A stretch of DNA of 33,170 bases from NCBI GenBank assembly GCA_017445015.1, contig JAFSVL010000030.1, positions 1 through 33,170 of the forward strand, read 5' to 3'. The notes beneath the pieces were generated by a model. The model saw nothing but the letters and a program-made list of their open reading frames with translations, did no database searches and had not been told where the DNA came from. Positions 1 to 14,891 of the stretch are shown in pieces; position 1 is the stretch's first letter, and each line of letters starts with the position of its first letter. The position numbers and the translations under genes were made by a program. The DNA is from Bacteroidales bacterium. GTDB taxonomy: Bacteria; Bacteroidota; Bacteroidia; Bacteroidales; UBA932.

Positions 1-24
1 CCTCGGACACGTCAGAGGGAGGGA

Positions 25-99
25 CCCGACGGATACAAGTTATCGCGCAGCGATGACGCAGGAGACGTCGGGAGGGATGGAGTGAGCGAAGCGAACGGA
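25..99. repeat. Dispersed structured element, copy A
   Basis: About 75 bp that match 13199-13273 at roughly 59 of 75 positions without gaps. A closing stem is formed by cccgacg (25-31) and cgtcggg (66-72), perfectly complementary. Inside it a second hairpin, gttatcg/cgatgac around the loop cgcag (39-57), can form with one G-U pair. The 3' part contains the conserved block ggagtgagcga (79-89). Orientation is unknown; complementarity is slightly better read on the + strand because the other copy needs a G-U pair there. Function unknown. Confidence 0.75.
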
Positions 100-153
100 A
101 CCCTCCGGGAGCTCCTGCCGCCTTCCGCATCCCCACACCAGTTGCCCCACGAG

Positions 154-177
154 GGCGTGTCCACCCTCGGACACGTC
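154..177 (+). other. Hairpin upstream of the lyase gene
   Basis: ggcgtgtcc (154-162) pairs with ggacacgtc (169-177) across the loop accctc, nine pairs with one G-U. The right arm is part of the 15-bp direct repeat. There is no T run on either side typical of an intrinsic terminator. Confidence 0.5.
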
Positions 178-236
178 AGGGGGAAGGAATTTTGGCGATC
201 TTGATAAAAAATGTATATTTACCTGTTGGATAAATA

Positions 237-2191: not shown

Positions 2192-3550
2192 CTATTCCCC
2201 TTTGAGATAGGCGTTGTATTTCTGGTTCTTTTCCTTGTACTGGTTGCCGAGGGCCTCATTGTCCTGACGGCTGTAGGCGGAATAGAGGTTGTAGCAGACA
2301 ATCTTGAGATACTGGGCGGCCACATCCTTGTTGTTCTTTTCTTCAGAGATATTGAAGAAAGACTCGAAAGGCTCGACGCACTGCACCAGCGCATCCATAT
2401 ACTGGTTCACCAGGGCCTCATACTTATTGTTGTCGTCCTCGCGCTGCGCCTGGTCATAGAAGCCCATCGCCTCGTCATAGTAGAACTTGCCGATGCAATA
2501 GTAACCATAGGCATACTTGGGATCCACCTCAACACTCTTCTTATAACCGGCGATGGCCTCTTCCTTCATGCCGAGTTTCGCACGCACATCGGCCTCCACG
2601 GCATAAAGTGAAGCATTTTTGGGATCCTGCTGCTTGGCTTTGGTAAAGAGGTCGAAAATCTCCTGCGGATCTTCCTGAAGCTGGATTTTCTGGTTGATCA
2701 GGTTGATGACGATCTCCTGGTTCAGGGAGTACTTGGCGATACCCTGCTCCAGATAGCCCTTGGATTCCTTGCGGATGGCCAGAGAGTCAGCGGCATTCGC
2801 CGCCTTGTCCAGGGTCGCCTCGGTCACATAGTAAAGGGCGGCATACACCTTGCCCTCGCTGTCGTAACCATATTCCAGGCACTTGTTCAGGATATCCTTG
2901 GCCTTGGCGTTGTCTCCCGACAGGCGGGCGGCGACGGAGGCGTTGAAGAGGGCCAGCGTATCCAGTTGGGCGTAAGGGGGTTCGGCAGAGACCAGCGCGG
3001 CCTGCTCGAACATATAGGAAGCCTTGTCCAGTTTCTGGGTATAGTAGTAGAAGGCCGCCTCATTCTGGAACTTGCCGGAAATGTTCTTGTAGGCGTCAGC
3101 CACTTCCTTGCCTTTCTTAGGATCGAGTTCAAACGCCTTCTTGTAGGCGCCGAAAGCCTGTTCGAGCGCATCGGGATAGGCCGCGTTCCGGACCTCGGTA
3201 AAGAGCAGCTGACCGCTCTTGGCATCGAAATAGAGGTTCGCGTTCTCGAAAGAGAGTTTTTCTACAGATTTGCCTTCGATCTGTACAATTTCCGTACGCT
3301 TGGGCTTGAGTCCCAGGTCGGAGAGCTGCACCTTGTACTGAACGGAGGAGAACTCCTTGAGGGGCGCATTGTAGGCGTCCAGCATTTTCTTTCCGAAATT
3401 GATCCAAGATGCCGGCTTTGAGGCGCTCTTCGGATCAACCGTGGCCAGGCGCGCCTTTTCGGCCGCCTTTTTCGCGTTTTCGATATTGCCCTGCGCGGCT
3501 GCCGGAAGGAGGGCGAACACCGCAAGCGTCAAAAGGATAATCTTTTTCAT
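2192..3550 (-). CDS. Exported tetratricopeptide-repeat protein
   Basis: 452 residues starting MKKIILLTLAVFALLPAAAQG, a clear signal peptide with an AQG-type cleavage site, so probably periplasmic. After an N-terminal region (20-130) without a recognised domain, several helical TPR-like units follow, for example around 130-215, 235-290 and 295-375 (DPKNASLYAVEADVRAKLG, then DPKYAYGYYCIGKFYYDEA). TPRs mediate protein-protein contacts; no catalytic motif is visible. It lies 31 bp behind gyrA on the same strand and is likely co-transcribed. The start is the only ATG before the signal peptide. A GACTAAA heptamer repeated three times sits directly before the start codon. Specific function unknown. 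Confidence 0.85.
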   Translation of the reverse strand: MKKIILLTLAVFALLPAAAQGNIENAKKAAEKARLATVDPKSASKPASWINFGKKMLDAYNAPLKEFSSVQYKVQLSDLGLKPKRTEIVQIEGKSVEKLSFENANLYFDAKSGQLLFTEVRNAAYPDALEQAFGAYKKAFELDPKKGKEVADAYKNISGKFQNEAAFYYYTQKLDKASYMFEQAALVSAEPPYAQLDTLALFNASVAARLSGDNAKAKDILNKCLEYGYDSEGKVYAALYYVTEATLDKAANAADSLAIRKESKGYLEQGIAKYSLNQEIVINLINQKIQLQEDPQEIFDLFTKAKQQDPKNASLYAVEADVRAKLGMKEEAIAGYKKSVEVDPKYAYGYYCIGKFYYDEAMGFYDQAQREDDNNKYEALVNQYMDALVQCVEPFESFFNISEEKNNKDVAAQYLKIVCYNLYSAYSRQDNEALGNQYKEKNQKYNAYLKGE

Positions 3551-8496: not shown

Positions 8497-9409
8497 GTTC
8501 CCAGGGCTTGATGGCGCTGTCCGTCAGGGCGGCGTCCTCCGTGAAAGTTTCTTTGTCCACCACGTTGGCCCGGATAAACCGGTCCATCAGCGGGTAATTG
8601 CGCATCATGGACCCGGCCACTTCATGTCCGATTCCCTTGAAACGGTAAATCGCGCAGGGGACGCCGGACTTCTCCAGCACCGGGAACAGGCAATGGCTGC
8701 CGGCAAAGCACAAGTTAAAGAAACTGATCTTTTTATAGGGGACAATCTTGTCGTCCATCCCGTGAAGGAGCAGCGTCGGCGCCGGGGCTGCCTGCCGGTA
8801 GCGGACCGCTCCCCTGTCCGAATACACCGCACCGGAAAAGGACACGACGCCCGCATAGGCAAAGTCCCGGGGCAGCACGGCGGAAAGCGCACCGCCGTTG
8901 CAGCGCTCCCAATCGGCCTGCAAGACCGTAATGGCCCCCGCCGAGGAGCCGCAGAGCACGATTTTCGCGGGATCGACACCCGTCGCCTCCGCATTGTCCA
9001 AAAGGAAAACGGTGGCGGAAAAGAGGTCCTCCACGGCCATGTCTATGGCCTTTTTCAGCAAATCGCGCTGGGCGATGCCCATCTTGGTCACGTCCTTGAG
9101 GCCGAGCCGGTAGTCGATGGCGACCACGCGGTAGCCGTCGTCCGTGAGCCGCTTGTAGAAAGGGATCAGGGACTCATGGTCCCGGTTTCCGGTCTTGAAT
9201 CCGCCTCCGAACACATAGAGCAGCGTCGGCATTCCCAGTCCTTCCGTTCCGGACGCCGGCGCATAAACATCCATCCAAAGCCCCTCGCTGCCGCGTTCGG
9301 CAAAAAGAAAAGTCGCCGAGGGGCGGATTGCCGGCTGCGCCTCCAGAGGCAGGCCGGGAGCCGCCAAAAGACCGGCGGAAAGCATCGTCGTCAGCAGTCG
9401 CTTCATCAT
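8456..9409 (-). CDS. Exported alpha/beta-hydrolase (esterase/lipase-like)
   Basis: 317 residues from the ATG at 9409, the first of two adjacent Met codons; the frame upstream has no domain. Residues 1-24 form a signal peptide (MMKRLLTTMLSAGLLAAPG). VFGGGFKTG resembles the HGGG oxyanion-hole motif, LCGSSAGA is a GxSxG nucleophile elbow, MDDKIVP should hold the acid and GIGHEV the catalytic histidine. This combination fits carboxylesterases of the hormone-sensitive lipase or BD-FAE kind; substrate unknown, deacetylation of plant or dietary glycans is possible. The start codon overlaps the stop of the nucleoside phosphorylase gene (ATGA), indicating translational coupling, and its 3' end overlaps clpC by 41 bp. 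Confidence 0.85.
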   Translation of the reverse strand: MMKRLLTTMLSAGLLAAPGLPLEAQPAIRPSATFLFAERGSEGLWMDVYAPASGTEGLGMPTLLYVFGGGFKTGNRDHESLIPFYKRLTDDGYRVVAIDYRLGLKDVTKMGIAQRDLLKKAIDMAVEDLFSATVFLLDNAEATGVDPAKIVLCGSSAGAITVLQADWERCNGGALSAVLPRDFAYAGVVSFSGAVYSDRGAVRYRQAAPAPTLLLHGMDDKIVPYKKISFFNLCFAGSHCLFPVLEKSGVPCAIYRFKGIGHEVAGSMMRNYPLMDRFIRANVVDKETFTEDAALTDSAIKPWELKSLDDIYSKSDQ

Positions 9410-11638: not shown

Positions 11639-12886
11639 ATGAAAGGAAAACGCGTAGTAATTACCGGCATGGGAGTCCTTTCCTGCCTGGGGAACGACAT
11701 CAACAGCTTCTGGAAAAATCTCGTGGACGGCGTCTGCGGGATTGACTTCATCACGGAGTTCGATACCGACGCGCTTCCCGTCAAGATCGGCGGCAAGGTG
11801 CGCGGCTTCGACCCTCTGGAATTCGGCATGGACAAGGCCTTCATCCGCAAGCAGGATCCTTTCACGATTTATGCGATGGCGGCCGCCTGGCAGGCGTTCA
11901 AGGAGTCCGGGCTCGTATCCGGCGGAAACATCGATCCCTTCCGCCTGGGCGTTTACATCGGTTCCGGCGTGGGCGGGTTCACCGTCGCGCACCGGGAAAT
12001 CAACAAGATGTACGACGACCCTTCCGGCCGCTGGCTCTCCCCCATGTTCATCCCCACGATGATCTCGAATATCGCCAGCGGGCAGGTCGCCATCAAATTC
12101 GAGGCGAAAGGCCCCTGCATCGATATCGTCACCGCCTGTGCCACCTCCACCCATTCCATCGGCGAGGCCTACCGGACCATCAAGCACGGCTATGCCGATG
12201 CCATCGCCGCCGGCGGCACGGACAACTGCACCATCCCCCTCGGACTGGTGGGATTCGGGAACCTGAAAGCGCTTTCCCGGGCGACCGACCCCAAATATGC
12301 CTCGCTTCCCTTCAACCTGAACCGCGGCGGATTCGTGATGGCGGACGGGGCGTCCGTACTGATCCTGGAAGAATACGAGCACGCGAAGGCACGCGGCGCA
12401 AAAATCTATGCCGAGATGGTGGGCTACGGCAGTACCTGCGACGCTTTCCATGCCACGGCGCCGCGGCCCGACGGCAGCACCCAGGCACGATGCATTACCG
12501 ATGCCTGCGAGGAAGCGGAATTCGATGCGGCGAAAGATACGGTCTATATCAACGCCCACGGTACCGGTACCAAATTGAACGACGTCGCGGAAACGATTGC
12601 CTACAAAAACGCGTTCGGGGATTTCGCCTACAAGTGCCATATCTCATCGACGAAATCCATGCACGGGCACATGCTCGGGGCCACCGGCTCCACGGAGGCC
12701 ATTGCAGCGATCCTTGCGCTGCACGACGGAATCGTACCGCCGACCATCAATCTCGATACCCCGGATCCGGAATGCGACCTGGACTACACGCCCTGCAAGG
12801 CCGTCAAGGCGGACATTACCCTCTCCTTAAGCGATTCCTTCGGATTCGGGGGGCACAACGCCTGCCTGGCGTTCAGGCGTCCCTGA
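11639..12886 (+). CDS. fabF: 3-oxoacyl-ACP synthase II (KAS II)
   Basis: 415 residues, normal for FabF. The enzyme condenses malonyl-ACP with a growing acyl-ACP in type II fatty-acid synthesis. The Cys-His-His triad is visible: Cys in DIVTACATSTHS (near 163), His in NAHGTGTKLND (near 304) and His in STKSMHGHMLGATGS (near 341), and the C-terminus ends with the glycine-rich FGFGGHN. It stands alone, without acpP next to it, so it may be a second KAS of the genome. Its stop codon sits in a perfect 10-bp inverted repeat whose right arm is also the start of the tandem repeats that follow. Confidence 0.95.
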   Translation: MKGKRVVITGMGVLSCLGNDINSFWKNLVDGVCGIDFITEFDTDALPVKIGGKVRGFDPLEFGMDKAFIRKQDPFTIYAMAAAWQAFKESGLVSGGNIDPFRLGVYIGSGVGGFTVAHREINKMYDDPSGRWLSPMFIPTMISNIASGQVAIKFEAKGPCIDIVTACATSTHSIGEAYRTIKHGYADAIAAGGTDNCTIPLGLVGFGNLKALSRATDPKYASLPFNLNRGGFVMADGASVLILEEYEHAKARGAKIYAEMVGYGSTCDAFHATAPRPDGSTQARCITDACEEAEFDAAKDTVYINAHGTGTKLNDVAETIAYKNAFGDFAYKCHISSTKSMHGHMLGATGSTEAIAAILALHDGIVPPTINLDTPDPECDLDYTPCKAVKADITLSLSDSFGFGGHNACLAFRRP

Positions 12887-12891
12887 ACGCC
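12868..12891 (+). other. Hairpin spanning the fabF stop codon
   Basis: ggcgttcagg (12868-12877) is perfectly complementary to cctgaacgcc (12882-12891) with loop cgtc. The fabF TGA (12884-12886) is in the right arm. No T run follows, so it is not a classical intrinsic terminator. Confidence 0.65.
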
Positions 12892-13045
12892 ATTATGATC
12901 CATTAGGGGATGGTTCCCCTAAAACCCTTCTGTCGCGGCATTGCCGCTCCGAATCCCGGCGGACCTGAACGCCATTATGATCCATTAGGGGATGGTTCCC
13001 CTAAAACCCCTCTGTCGCGGCGCCGCCGCTCCGAATCCCGGCGGA
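12882..13045. repeat. 82-bp tandem duplication after fabF
   Basis: Unit 1 (12882-12963) and unit 2 (12964-13045) differ at only a few bases. Each unit has an 8-bp hairpin ttaggggatggttcccctaa (12903-12922; 12985-13004) and a second hairpin: gcggca-t-tgccgc in unit 1 (12935-12947), gcggcg-c-cgccgc in unit 2 (13017-13029). In the second hairpin an A-T pair is replaced by G-C with both strands changed. A partial third start, cctgaacgc, lies at 13046. Confidence 0.9.
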
Positions 13046-13172
13046 CCTGAACGCGACACCTTTTTTTTTATGAGACTGTCCGCGGGAGTTGCCTCTGAAG
13101 CGACTAAGCTCCTGCGTAGTAGGAGCTGAAGGGGCTCTCCCGCGGGCCTGAACGCCAAACCTTTTGATGAGA
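13046..13172. repeat. Direct repeats (about 25-30 bp) flanking a hairpin block
   Basis: cctgaacgc...acctttt...atgagac begins at 13046 and again at 13147, 101 bp apart; the first copy has a longer T run. Both begin with the same nine bases that open each 82-bp unit. The hairpin at 13080-13145 lies between them. Confidence 0.65.
13080..13145. other. Nested hairpin
   Basis: Outer arms ccgcgggag (13080-13088) and ctcccgcgg (13137-13145) are perfectly complementary; inside, agctcct (13107-13113) pairs with aggagct (13121-13127) around a 7-base loop. A related block, ggagctgaaggg, recurs at 13580-13591 near prfA. Confidence 0.65.
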
Positions 13173-13198
13173 CGCAGCACAAAAGGGAGCGGAAGCGG

Positions 13199-13273
13199 CC
13201 CGCAAGATACAAGGTAGTGCGCAGCAATGACGCAGGAGATTGTGGGGGGGCCGGAGTGAGCAAGGCGAACGGA
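13199..13273. repeat. Dispersed structured element, copy B
   Basis: Ungapped match of about 59 of 75 positions to 25-99. The closing stem is cccgcaa (13199-13205) with ttgtggg (13240-13246), one G-U pair, with exactly the same 41-base arm spacing as in copy A. Three base pairs have changed on both sides compared with copy A (A-T to C-G, C-G to A-T, G-C to A-T). The central loop cgcag and the block ggagtgagc are conserved. A separate hairpin, cgggta-cag-tacccg, follows at 13281-13295. Confidence 0.78.
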
Positions 13274-13280
13274 GTTCCGA

Positions 13281-13295
13281 CGGGTACAGTACCCG
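13281..13295. other. Small hairpin after structured element B
   Basis: cgggta (13281-13286) and tacccg (13290-13295) are perfect complements around the loop cag. It is at the place where copy A has the palindrome ggagctcc (108-115), so a 3' hairpin may be a loosely conserved part of the element. Confidence 0.5.
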
Positions 13296-13434: not shown

Positions 13435-13540
13435 TCCGGCAACCCCCGAATTTCGGGGCGTTTTTTGCCAGGTTTCCGGACCTCGGGTCCTGCAACCCCG
13501 AAGAAATTGCCGCTTTTTTGCCAGGTTTCCGGACCTCGGG
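13435..13540. repeat. 53-bp imperfect tandem repeat
   Basis: Unit 1 (13435-13487) and unit 2 (13488-13540) share their last 27 bases exactly (13461-13487 and 13514-13540, starting with six T) and most of their first 12; the middle differs. Unit 1 has the intact terminator hairpin, unit 2 only a weak 4-bp remnant (gcaa/ttgc). Right after it gggctgaagaac occurs twice. Confidence 0.85.
13444..13466 (+). terminator. Intrinsic-terminator-like hairpin with T run
   Basis: ccccgaa (13444-13450) pairs with ttcgggg (13452-13458), followed by cg and six T (13461-13466). It is about 560 bp beyond fabF on the same strand. An additional outer stem aggtccgg (13432-13439) with ccggacct (13476-13483) encloses it. 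Confidence 0.65.
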
Positions 13541-13610: not shown

Positions 13611-14699
13611 CTACTCCCCGGCTTCTTTGAGGCGTTCGGCGTTTTCGGCCACCTGAAGCTGATCGATACAGTCCTGGATGTCTCCGTCCATAAAGACGGG
13701 CAGATTGAACATGCTCCAGCCGGTGCGATGGTCCGTCACACGGCCCTGGGGATAGTTATAAGTACGGATCTTGGCGGAACGGTCGCCGGTAGAGACCATC
13801 GTCTTGCGCTTGGCAGAAATCTCGTCGAGGTATTTCTGATGTTCCAGGTTATAGAGACGGGTCCGGAGTTCCTCGAAGGCGCGGTCCTTGTTCTTGAGCT
13901 GCGAGCGTTCCTCCTGGCACTGCACCACGAGTCCCGTGGGGATGTGCGTCAGGCGCACGGCGGAATAGGTCGTATTCACCCCCTGGCCGCCGGGGCCGGA
14001 AGAACAGAACAGGTCGAGCCGGATATCGTCCCAACTCAAATCCACATCGAATTCGCCGGCTTCGGGGAATACGGCCACGGAGGCCGCTGAGGTCTGGATG
14101 CGCCCCTGCGTTTCGGTCTGGGGCACGCGCTGCACGCGATGCACGCCGGACTCATATTTCATCGTACCGTAAACCGTATCGCCGGTAAGTTTGAAAACGA
14201 TCTGCTTATAGCCGCCGGAAGTGCCGGGCGTCTGGTCGGTAACCTCCAGTTTCCAGCCCTTGGATTCGGCGTAATGGGCATACATGCGGAACAGGTCGCC
14301 CGCAAAGATGGCCGCTTCGTCGCCGCCGGTACCACCGCGGATTTCCACGATGGCATTCTTGGCGTCGTCGGGGTCAGCGGGGATGAGCAGCAGGCGGATG
14401 CGCTGCTCCATTTCGGGCAGCTTCGGCTCGATTTCACCGATTTCCTCGCGTGCCATCTCCTTCAGTTCATCGTCCTTCTCGTTGAGCAGGATATCCTTGG
14501 CCGACGCAAGGTCGGAGAGCATCTTCTTGTATTCCAGTCCCGCAGCGATAATCGGCTCCAGTTCCTTATAATCCTTGTTCAACTGGACATAACGCTTCAT
14601 ATCCTGCATCACTTCAGGGCTTGCCAGCTGGTCCTGCAGCGACTGGAACTTGTCCTGCAGCGACAATACCTTATCCAACAAATTATTATTTTCTGCCAT
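13611..14699 (-). CDS. prfA: Peptide chain release factor 1
   Basis: 362 residues from the ATG at 14699, where homology begins (MAENNNLLDKVLSLQDKF); the frame continues open upstream without family similarity. RF1 reads UAA and UAG and triggers peptide release. The stop-recognition tripeptide is PQT in RVPQTETQGRI (PxT as in RF1, not SPF as in RF2), and the catalytic GGQ is in SSGPGGQGVNTT near residue 230. The PCRF domain with its long N-terminal helices fills about 10-140. It follows the 13-gene chain on the same strand but is separated from it by 191 bp containing a very long inverted repeat. Confidence 0.96.
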   Translation of the reverse strand: MAENNNLLDKVLSLQDKFQSLQDQLASPEVMQDMKRYVQLNKDYKELEPIIAAGLEYKKMLSDLASAKDILLNEKDDELKEMAREEIGEIEPKLPEMEQRIRLLLIPADPDDAKNAIVEIRGGTGGDEAAIFAGDLFRMYAHYAESKGWKLEVTDQTPGTSGGYKQIVFKLTGDTVYGTMKYESGVHRVQRVPQTETQGRIQTSAASVAVFPEAGEFDVDLSWDDIRLDLFCSSGPGGQGVNTTYSAVRLTHIPTGLVVQCQEERSQLKNKDRAFEELRTRLYNLEHQKYLDEISAKRKTMVSTGDRSAKIRTYNYPQGRVTDHRTGWSMFNLPVFMDGDIQDCIDQLQVAENAERLKEAGE

Positions 14700-14813
14700 A
14701 TCTTTTTCTTCCTTTTTATTATCTGATATTGTATTTAGAGACAATGAAAAAATTACCCGCGTCACTTTTGTCGCCTGTGCCACCCGTTAATTTCTTCATC
14801 GTCACTTACTCCT

Positions 14814-14891
14814 GAAACAGACTGTGAGAGCGGGCGCTTGTTGCTTCGCAACCCTATCCGGGTAAATGCGCCCGCTCTCACAGTCTGTTTC
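14814..14891. other. Perfect 24-bp inverted repeat with two hairpins in its loop
   Basis: The arms 14814-14837 and 14868-14891 are exact reverse complements over 24 bp. The 30-base loop contains gttgc-ttc-gcaac (14840-14852) and an adjoining accc/gggt pairing (14851-14854 with 14860-14863), which compete at two bases, so a three-way junction is possible. The right arm ends on the first base of the stop codon of the upstream gene. No T run, no obvious target-site duplication, no gene inside. Confidence 0.9.

Follow-up and report, generated by a model that had tools for sequence, protein, structure and literature searches.

We describe a family of structured elements, R1, which is probably a subterminal module of a lineage of IS1182-like transposons that has also spread in the form of copies without a transposase. 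The window analyzed here is the 33,170-nucleotide Bacteroidales contig JAFSVL010000030.1 (assembly GCA_017445015.1), which belongs to a 93-contig, 80% complete genome bin and holds two decayed R1 copies and one fragment.

The full element is about 145–170 nt in length and comprises an outer stem (P1), a hairpin with an associated pseudoknot (P2), the helices P3 and P3b, and a hairpin P4. P1 is long, the best stem around 134 matches having a median of 26.5 pairs when gaps are allowed. P2 is a 7-bp hairpin with the loop ACCCNC, the last five bases of which pair with a downstream GNGGG to form the pseudoknot. P3 is the 7-bp stem that the first-pass annotation of this DNA had noticed; it contains a conserved internal loop, GATACAA opposite GCAGGAGA, and is capped by the hairpin P3b. 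P4 is short, with GGAG on one side and CGGAG on the other. Other genera have shorter variants of approximately 105 nt, as in genome G473.

Two alignments lead us to consider R1 as almost certainly a structured family, and they bear out the earlier suggestion of a structured multi-copy family with compensatory changes. The first, A2, contains 29 copies and was obtained from a 36-row alignment (A1) by dropping L001 and L002, which are the copies in the window, together with some near-duplicates from genomes G016 and G020. In A2, whose seed rows were found by similarity to the window and which hence leans toward the window's subfamily, 95.2% of the cells are paired, as against 75.4% in shuffled and 38–49% in slid structures; changes on both sides are seen in 29 of the 46 pairs and the covariation score is 0.505 versus 0.148. 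The second contains 111 distinct rows and, being fitted to the R1 model, leans toward it; here 95.5% of the cells pair versus 71.1%, with both-side changes in 36 of 41 pairs. The pseudoknot (A2 columns 28–32/44–48) is paired in 99.3% of the cells and two of its five pairs are changed on both sides, the central pair (31/45) being CG in 13 copies, UA in 9, GC in 5, UG in 1 and another combination in 1. Within the P3 internal loop, inspection of A1 and A2 by eye revealed linked changes between unpaired bases (GATAC/GGAGA, GAGAC/GGAAA and GATGC/GCAGA), which suggests a conserved non-canonical motif. The first-pass annotation had recognized no known RNA family, and Rfam 15 likewise gives no match in the window at the gathering threshold; at E<=5, seven loci with good R1 copies yielded two sub-threshold matches, both of which lie outside the element. 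An identity with an Rfam family or a tRNA gene was set aside, as R1 matches neither.

The two segments that drew attention to the element, copy A at 25–99 and copy B at 13199–13273, had been reported to match at about 59 of 75 positions without gaps, with about 16 differences, seven of them in the arms of one stem, and with a constant arm spacing. On recount these figures are exact: 59 of 75 positions are identical, 7 of the 16 differences fall within both arms of the single 7-bp stem, and the arms start 41 nt apart in both copies, with 34 nt separating them. The next-best ungapped 75-mer for copy A on either strand of the window matches at 38 of 75 positions, and a repeat search of the window gave 77% identity over 86 nt (14–99 and 13188–13273). 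A covariance model of R1 built from 29 other copies, with both window copies left out, detects copy A at 1..117 (+; cmsearch 107.3 bits, E 5.9e-22; model positions 27–145, cut off at the 5' end) and copy B at 13130..13293 (+; 64.6 bits, E 1.1e-12). It also detects a weak fragment of a further copy at 139..235 (+; 21.3 bits, E 0.0028), in which the P2 hairpin (about 156–175) alone is well matched and the remainder is unrecognizable; in the repeat search, positions 1–24 of the window are 92% alike with 165–188.

Sequence comparison places the P3 arms of copy A at 25..31 (+, CCCGACG) and 66..72 (+, CGTCGGG), and those of copy B at 13199..13205 (+, CCCGCAA) and 13240..13246 (+, TTGTGGG). In copy A the P3b hairpin (39..57, +, GTT-ATCGC-GCA-GCGAT-GAC) and the 3' strand of the pseudoknot (15..19, +, GAGGG) were located by eye; P3 and P3b pairs are among those counted in the alignments, and the pseudoknot corresponds to the A2 columns given above. 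The partner of this strand, the P2 loop, survives only as positions 1–4, the contig start having truncated copy A such that the left arm of P1 and the 5' arm of P2 are missing. Copy B is decayed on its 5' side, where P2, the pseudoknot and much of P1 are lost, and 34 nt of its model match, at the place where most of P2 would lie, are unmatched. Because of this truncation and decay the window pair reveals only the 3' half of R1; the stem first noticed is real, and the element extends well beyond it and P3 is one of several helices. The repeat also reaches the ends of three other contigs of the bin (C32:1-51, C45:6-66 and the final bases of C81), as is expected, since assembly breaks at repeats.

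Copy B lies between two convergent genes from the ORF list, a 415-aa ORF on its 5' side (11639..12886, +) that is FabF-like by reading and a 390-aa ORF on its 3' side (13611..14783, -) that is PrfA-like by reading and that served as the anchor for the comparison of orthologous sites below. Other repeats are found in the same region: an 82-bp unit present twice in tandem (12876–13039, 93% alike) upstream of copy B, each unit with a GGGGATGGTTCCCC palindrome; two identical copies of a 27-nt direct repeat, TTTTTTGCCAGGTTTCCGGACCTCGGG, with starts 53 nt apart (13461–13540); and, just upstream of the prfA-like gene, a perfect inverted repeat (14814–14891) whose 24-bp arms enclose a loop of 30 nt.

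The pairing in R1 is strand-specific. A G.T pair on the strand of the first-pass annotation is an A.C pair on the opposite strand, and an excess of the former therefore means that folding occurs on the given strand. The ratio of G.T to A.C is 84:27 in P1 (114 copies), 96:1 in P3 and 100:1 in P3b, with the excess in P3 and P3b coming mainly from one conserved wobble pair each. Genomes with many copies show how the stems vary. Of the ten copies read in G530, nine have near-identical cores and one (L255) differs in P3, and a single P1 pair is seen as G-C, G.U and A-T in otherwise similar copies. P1 is ACTTGCCTC/GAGGCAAGT in L246 and L255, with a G.U intermediate in L252; it is ACTTACCTC/GAGGTAAGT in L247 and L249, with one wobble more in L253; and it is AGATGCATC/GATGCATCT in L248, L250 and L251. 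The P1 of L254 is imperfectly paired. Two loci with matching flanks in two genomes, L115 and L118, differ by a fully compensated change in P3, and L118 lacks 20 nt of P2.

In G473 the 11 copies (L275–L285) have cores of two near-identical types and mostly different outer arms of 17–43 bp, in which 315 of 321 P1 pairs are Watson-Crick. In one of them (L282, the same site as L290 and L294) an arm overlaps the last codons and the stop of comF. Such differing arms around near-identical cores, together with an arm that runs into a coding region, would be accounted for if P1 were kept by a DNA process such as template switching that corrects quasi-palindromes, instead of by selection on an RNA. We regard this as unlikely, given that the 84:27 excess in P1 is not expected from a process that is blind to strand and that the end of comF could instead be supplied by the arm of the element. 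The variable outer stem may alternatively stem from insertion into existing host palindromes, or the copy-specific stems may have arisen by slow drift only. Among the inverted repeats listed in a scan, which was dominated by the N runs of one locus, few long ones lay outside R1. Another of the G473 copies (L283) may be flanked on both sides by a 10-bp direct repeat, as judged by eye.

R1 is abundant in the genus of the window. The first-pass annotation had proposed a covariance-model search for more copies, and its proposal would have fallen if there were none or if they did not keep the stem; the opposite was found, with copies abundant and the stem kept. A plain DNA search detected copies in 20 of 61 genomes, all of the window's genus, and the R1 model detected the element in 323 of 400 genomes from this genus, a count in which negative genomes may be false negatives because at most seven candidates were scored per genome under strict filters. 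At the family level 36 of the 119 genomes, spread over 10 of the 25 genera, have R1, and in an order-wide sample of 119 genomes (E<=1e-6) it was found in the window's own genome only. Several single genomes have ten or more matched copies. At least 120 stretches in named genomes match an exact core pattern; most of the 80 matches listed carry the title uncultured Bacteroidales or Bacteroidia and one is titled Fibrobacter, and many of the titles among the matches listed name rumen, other ruminant or horse samples. On contig C23 of G437, R1 recurs at 9160, 13374, 17629 and 21854, a regular spacing of about 4.2 kb that perhaps reflects copies riding on tandem gene duplications.

Reading of the flanks revealed that several R1 copies adjoin genes for IS1182-like transposases, two of which score 415 and 468 bits with NCBIfam NF033551 (IS1182; cut-off 270). 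The locus L374 displays the arrangement: an R1 copy on the minus strand (1473–1627), the transposase gene and an R1 copy on the plus strand (3314–3456) follow one another, and a 24-nt inverted repeat of 96% identity encloses both copies. No target-site duplication was seen by eye at this locus. A search of 250 genus genomes with the L374 transposase (E<=1e-120) recovered 20 loci in 19 genomes, the locus of the query included. R1 (E<=0.01) lies beside 19 of these 20 loci and at both ends of 12, or beside 18 of 19 without the query's own locus, the 20 being close relatives of a query that was chosen because R1 flanks it. Thirty of the 31 R1 matches at these loci point outward; the exceptions are L400, which has no R1, and L401, the R1 of which points inward. 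Where a second copy is present, it often scores weakly or is truncated by the end of the contig (22–52 bits in several loci). The link of R1 to the transposons of one IS1182 lineage is thus very likely, in keeping with the earlier proposal of a mobile repeat tied to a transposase. By the transposase score and the inverted repeats at both ends of L374 these transposons resemble the IS1182 family, from which they are set apart by having, just within both ends, an outward-pointing element with covariation and a pseudoknot. We know of no such feature in the IS1182 family.

With a laxer cut-off (E<=1e-40) the transposase was detected in 8 of 78 chosen genomes, with R1 beside it in 5; R1 is absent beside the transposase in G511 (51% identity), G305 and G074, and also in G199 (55%). 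The remaining 70 genomes gave no transposase match, and these include the R1-rich G016, G437, G473, G499 and G530. We compared the flanks outside R1 with shuffled controls at eight testable loci, the flanks of L404 and L405 being too short and L395 and L406 not being included. An inverted repeat of the GAGGNTGAC type exceeds the shuffled maximum in four of them (L378, L391, L394 and L399). L397 has a motif of this type below the control maximum, L398 is one point above the control owing to a T-rich match distinct from the GAGGNTGAC motif, and L380 and L396 have no inverted repeat above the control. A similar repeat is seen by eye at both ends of the G511 transposon, which lacks R1.

Among the 3' flanks of R1, 14 of 106 contain a motif resembling these terminal inverted repeats (TIR), versus 3 of 406 control gene ends, with some of the 14 being transposase loci themselves (L046, L090 and L134). 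As the motif is found in just these 14, solo copies of R1 are not simple internal-deletion forms of the transposon. Taken with the R1-rich genomes without a transposase, the small number of TIR-like flanks implies that either R1 spreads by itself or transposases have been lost while the copies remain. Six inverted pairs of R1, five divergent and one convergent, have no transposase between them, and the spacer of one (L132) retains a palindrome resembling, by eye, one that precedes the transposase; these short pairs look like transposase-less forms. Two such pairs with matching flanks, L121 (5329–5658) and L129 (854–1159), have their two members in opposite order, as would result from inversion of the block. 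R1 shares with MITEs and other non-autonomous derivatives of insertion sequences its short, non-coding, multi-copy nature, its variable and mostly intergenic sites and its link to an insertion sequence. It is unlike them in that the insertion-sequence inverted repeats are missing from most solo copies and in having a pseudoknotted fold under strand-specific selection for pairing.

Most of the R1 copies seen are solitary, and they often lie between convergent genes. By our own codon-score gene calls, convergent genes surround 46 of 78 R1 sites. Among the other gaps the figure is 36 of 407 overall and 6 of 61 for those of 150 nt or longer; cruder, length-based calls gave 31 of 65 R1 sites as convergent. 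On the 3' side, 77 of 99 neighboring genes are directed toward R1, and 35 of these 77 end 75–120 nt from it; on the 5' side, 61 of 88 genes share the strand of R1. These gene-context counts omit three matches inside called genes and those without a called neighbor. Within 130 nt 3' of R1, 56 of 106 flanks have a terminator-like hairpin, a feature of 28 of 98 flanks on the 5' side and of 41 of 107 ends of control genes; the motif GGNTGAC/GTCANCC is present in 34 of 106 3' flanks, versus 5 of 98 and 9 of 107, respectively; short or duplicate flanks were dropped from the hairpin and TIR-motif counts. The 112 matches behind the context, hairpin, 111-row and TIR counts, and most of those behind the wobble counts, are not independent, because many come from G016 or from pairs within one locus. 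In the copies read by eye no run of T directly follows P1.

These preferences on the 3' side, along with the R1-rich genomes without a transposase, would also fit a structured element that is mobile or parasitic in its own right and targets terminator-like hairpins, whether those of host terminators or the terminal hairpins of the IS1182 lineage. We hold this to be rather doubtful: the presence of R1 at 19 of the 20 loci of the lineage, and at both ends of 12, goes beyond what chance choice of targets would easily produce, and no gene able to move R1 alone was found.

The sites of R1 turn over, and R1 is absent beside the same gene in most of the relatives compared. Thus prfA is present in 58 of 61 genus genomes and R1 at 1 of 30 prfA loci compared (the window itself), and comF is present in 35 of 40 genomes and R1 at 2 of 30 comF loci compared; about 1.5 kb around each gene was covered, with that gene alone as the anchor. 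Other than the transposase, no conserved neighboring gene was noticed in the flanks that were compared. This turnover, the near-identity of the cores within a genome and the placement of copies around transposases make it very unlikely that host selection maintains R1 as a small RNA or 3'-UTR element that was duplicated over time, despite the strong strand-specific constraint on its pairing and its frequent sense position downstream of genes (the 61 of 88 above) being what such an RNA would show.

The inverted R1 pairs also resemble REPINs, and genomes with R1 tend to have RAYT-like genes, raising the question of whether R1 is a REP/REPIN-type substrate of a RAYT (Y1/HUH) transposase. Such genes were found in 44 of 46 R1-positive versus 4 of 12 R1-negative near-complete genomes of the genus (Fisher p 1e-5), a comparison of hand-picked genomes from which the window's own genome (80% complete, R1-positive, with no RAYT match) was left out. 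However, R1 adjoins the RAYT gene in 3 of 30 loci, in 1 of a further set of 10 (a gene already counted among the three) and in none of 20 at E<=0.01, and many RAYT loci are bordered by short palindrome pairs of their own that are unlike R1; no RAYT frame was located in 8 of the 20 loci of the last set when read for such palindromes. As R1 is rarely beside RAYT genes, many of which have other short palindromes next to them, we dropped this explanation as extremely unlikely. REPs are given as 20–40 bp (PMC3116915, PMC3733652). As far as these descriptions go, R1 is like REPs and REPINs in being an extragenic palindromic repeat that sometimes forms inverted pairs, and unlike them in its length of about 145 nt and its multiple branches, the RAYT genes of the same genomes often adjoining other, short palindromes. 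The RAYT-like transposases seen at L216–L245 and L354–L373 are diverse, and many of them are flanked, on one side or on both, by a short palindrome pair of their own. In G016, the loci L034, L041 and L045 contain long intergenic arrays of several types of palindromic repeats, and two of these types also border, by eye, RAYT genes of this genome (L218 and L364), for which reason the array repeats are probably RAYT REPs.

Structured RNA candidates from the human microbiome include palindromic ones of 80–132 bp from Bacteroidetes (PMC8040213). In the main text of that study, to which our comparison refers, the candidates named in the passages compared are tied to phage, TPR, RuvA or TonB genes and the string 'transpos' does not occur, which distinguishes them from R1. 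In the open-licence literature on such elements, on IS1182 with palindromes or terminators and on REPs of rumen Bacteroidales, no recognizable description of R1 was found, PMC8040213 being covered by its main text.

The first-pass annotation had offered a mobile repeat or a functional RNA as alternatives. R1 is indeed a candidate module of a mobile element, but the two are not exclusive, its fold being selected on one strand. On the explanation that we favor, namely a subterminal module of an IS1182-like lineage, the transposon would be laid out as inverted repeat, R1, transposase, R1 and inverted repeat, with both R1 copies facing outward. The transposase, acting in cis or in trans, would spread R1, and copies without a transposase would be left behind or spread as singles or short inverted pairs. 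In outward transcripts the fold may act as RNA at their 3' end, adjoining the inverted repeat with its terminator-like hairpin, and could there end and insulate transcription, which would allow insertion between convergent genes to be tolerated. That the transposase spreads R1 and that the fold works as RNA at the transposon edges is a combination we put forward tentatively.

RNA modules at transposon ends act as guides in other families of insertion sequences: the omega RNA of IS200/IS605 and the bridge RNA of IS110 work with TnpB/IscB and with the IS110 recombinases, respectively. R1 is similar to these in being a structured module encoded at transposon ends, and differs in that the IS1182 enzymes linked to it are DDE transposases, for which we know of no RNA partner. 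In a bolder version, which we consider decidedly unlikely, an IS1182-family DDE element would encode at each end an outward-facing pseudoknotted RNA that is a working part of transposition, being either bound by the transposase or involved in picking terminator-like sites between convergent genes.

Were this true, a class of transposases with no RNA partner known to us would have gained one. A strongly covarying module at both ends of a lineage of DDE transposons is a direct, testable candidate for an RNA-transposase partnership, or at least for an insulator thanks to which insertion sequences can persist between convergent genes. The genomes with ten or more matched copies constitute a natural experiment, in some cases with cores that are near-identical and paired arms that vary independently.
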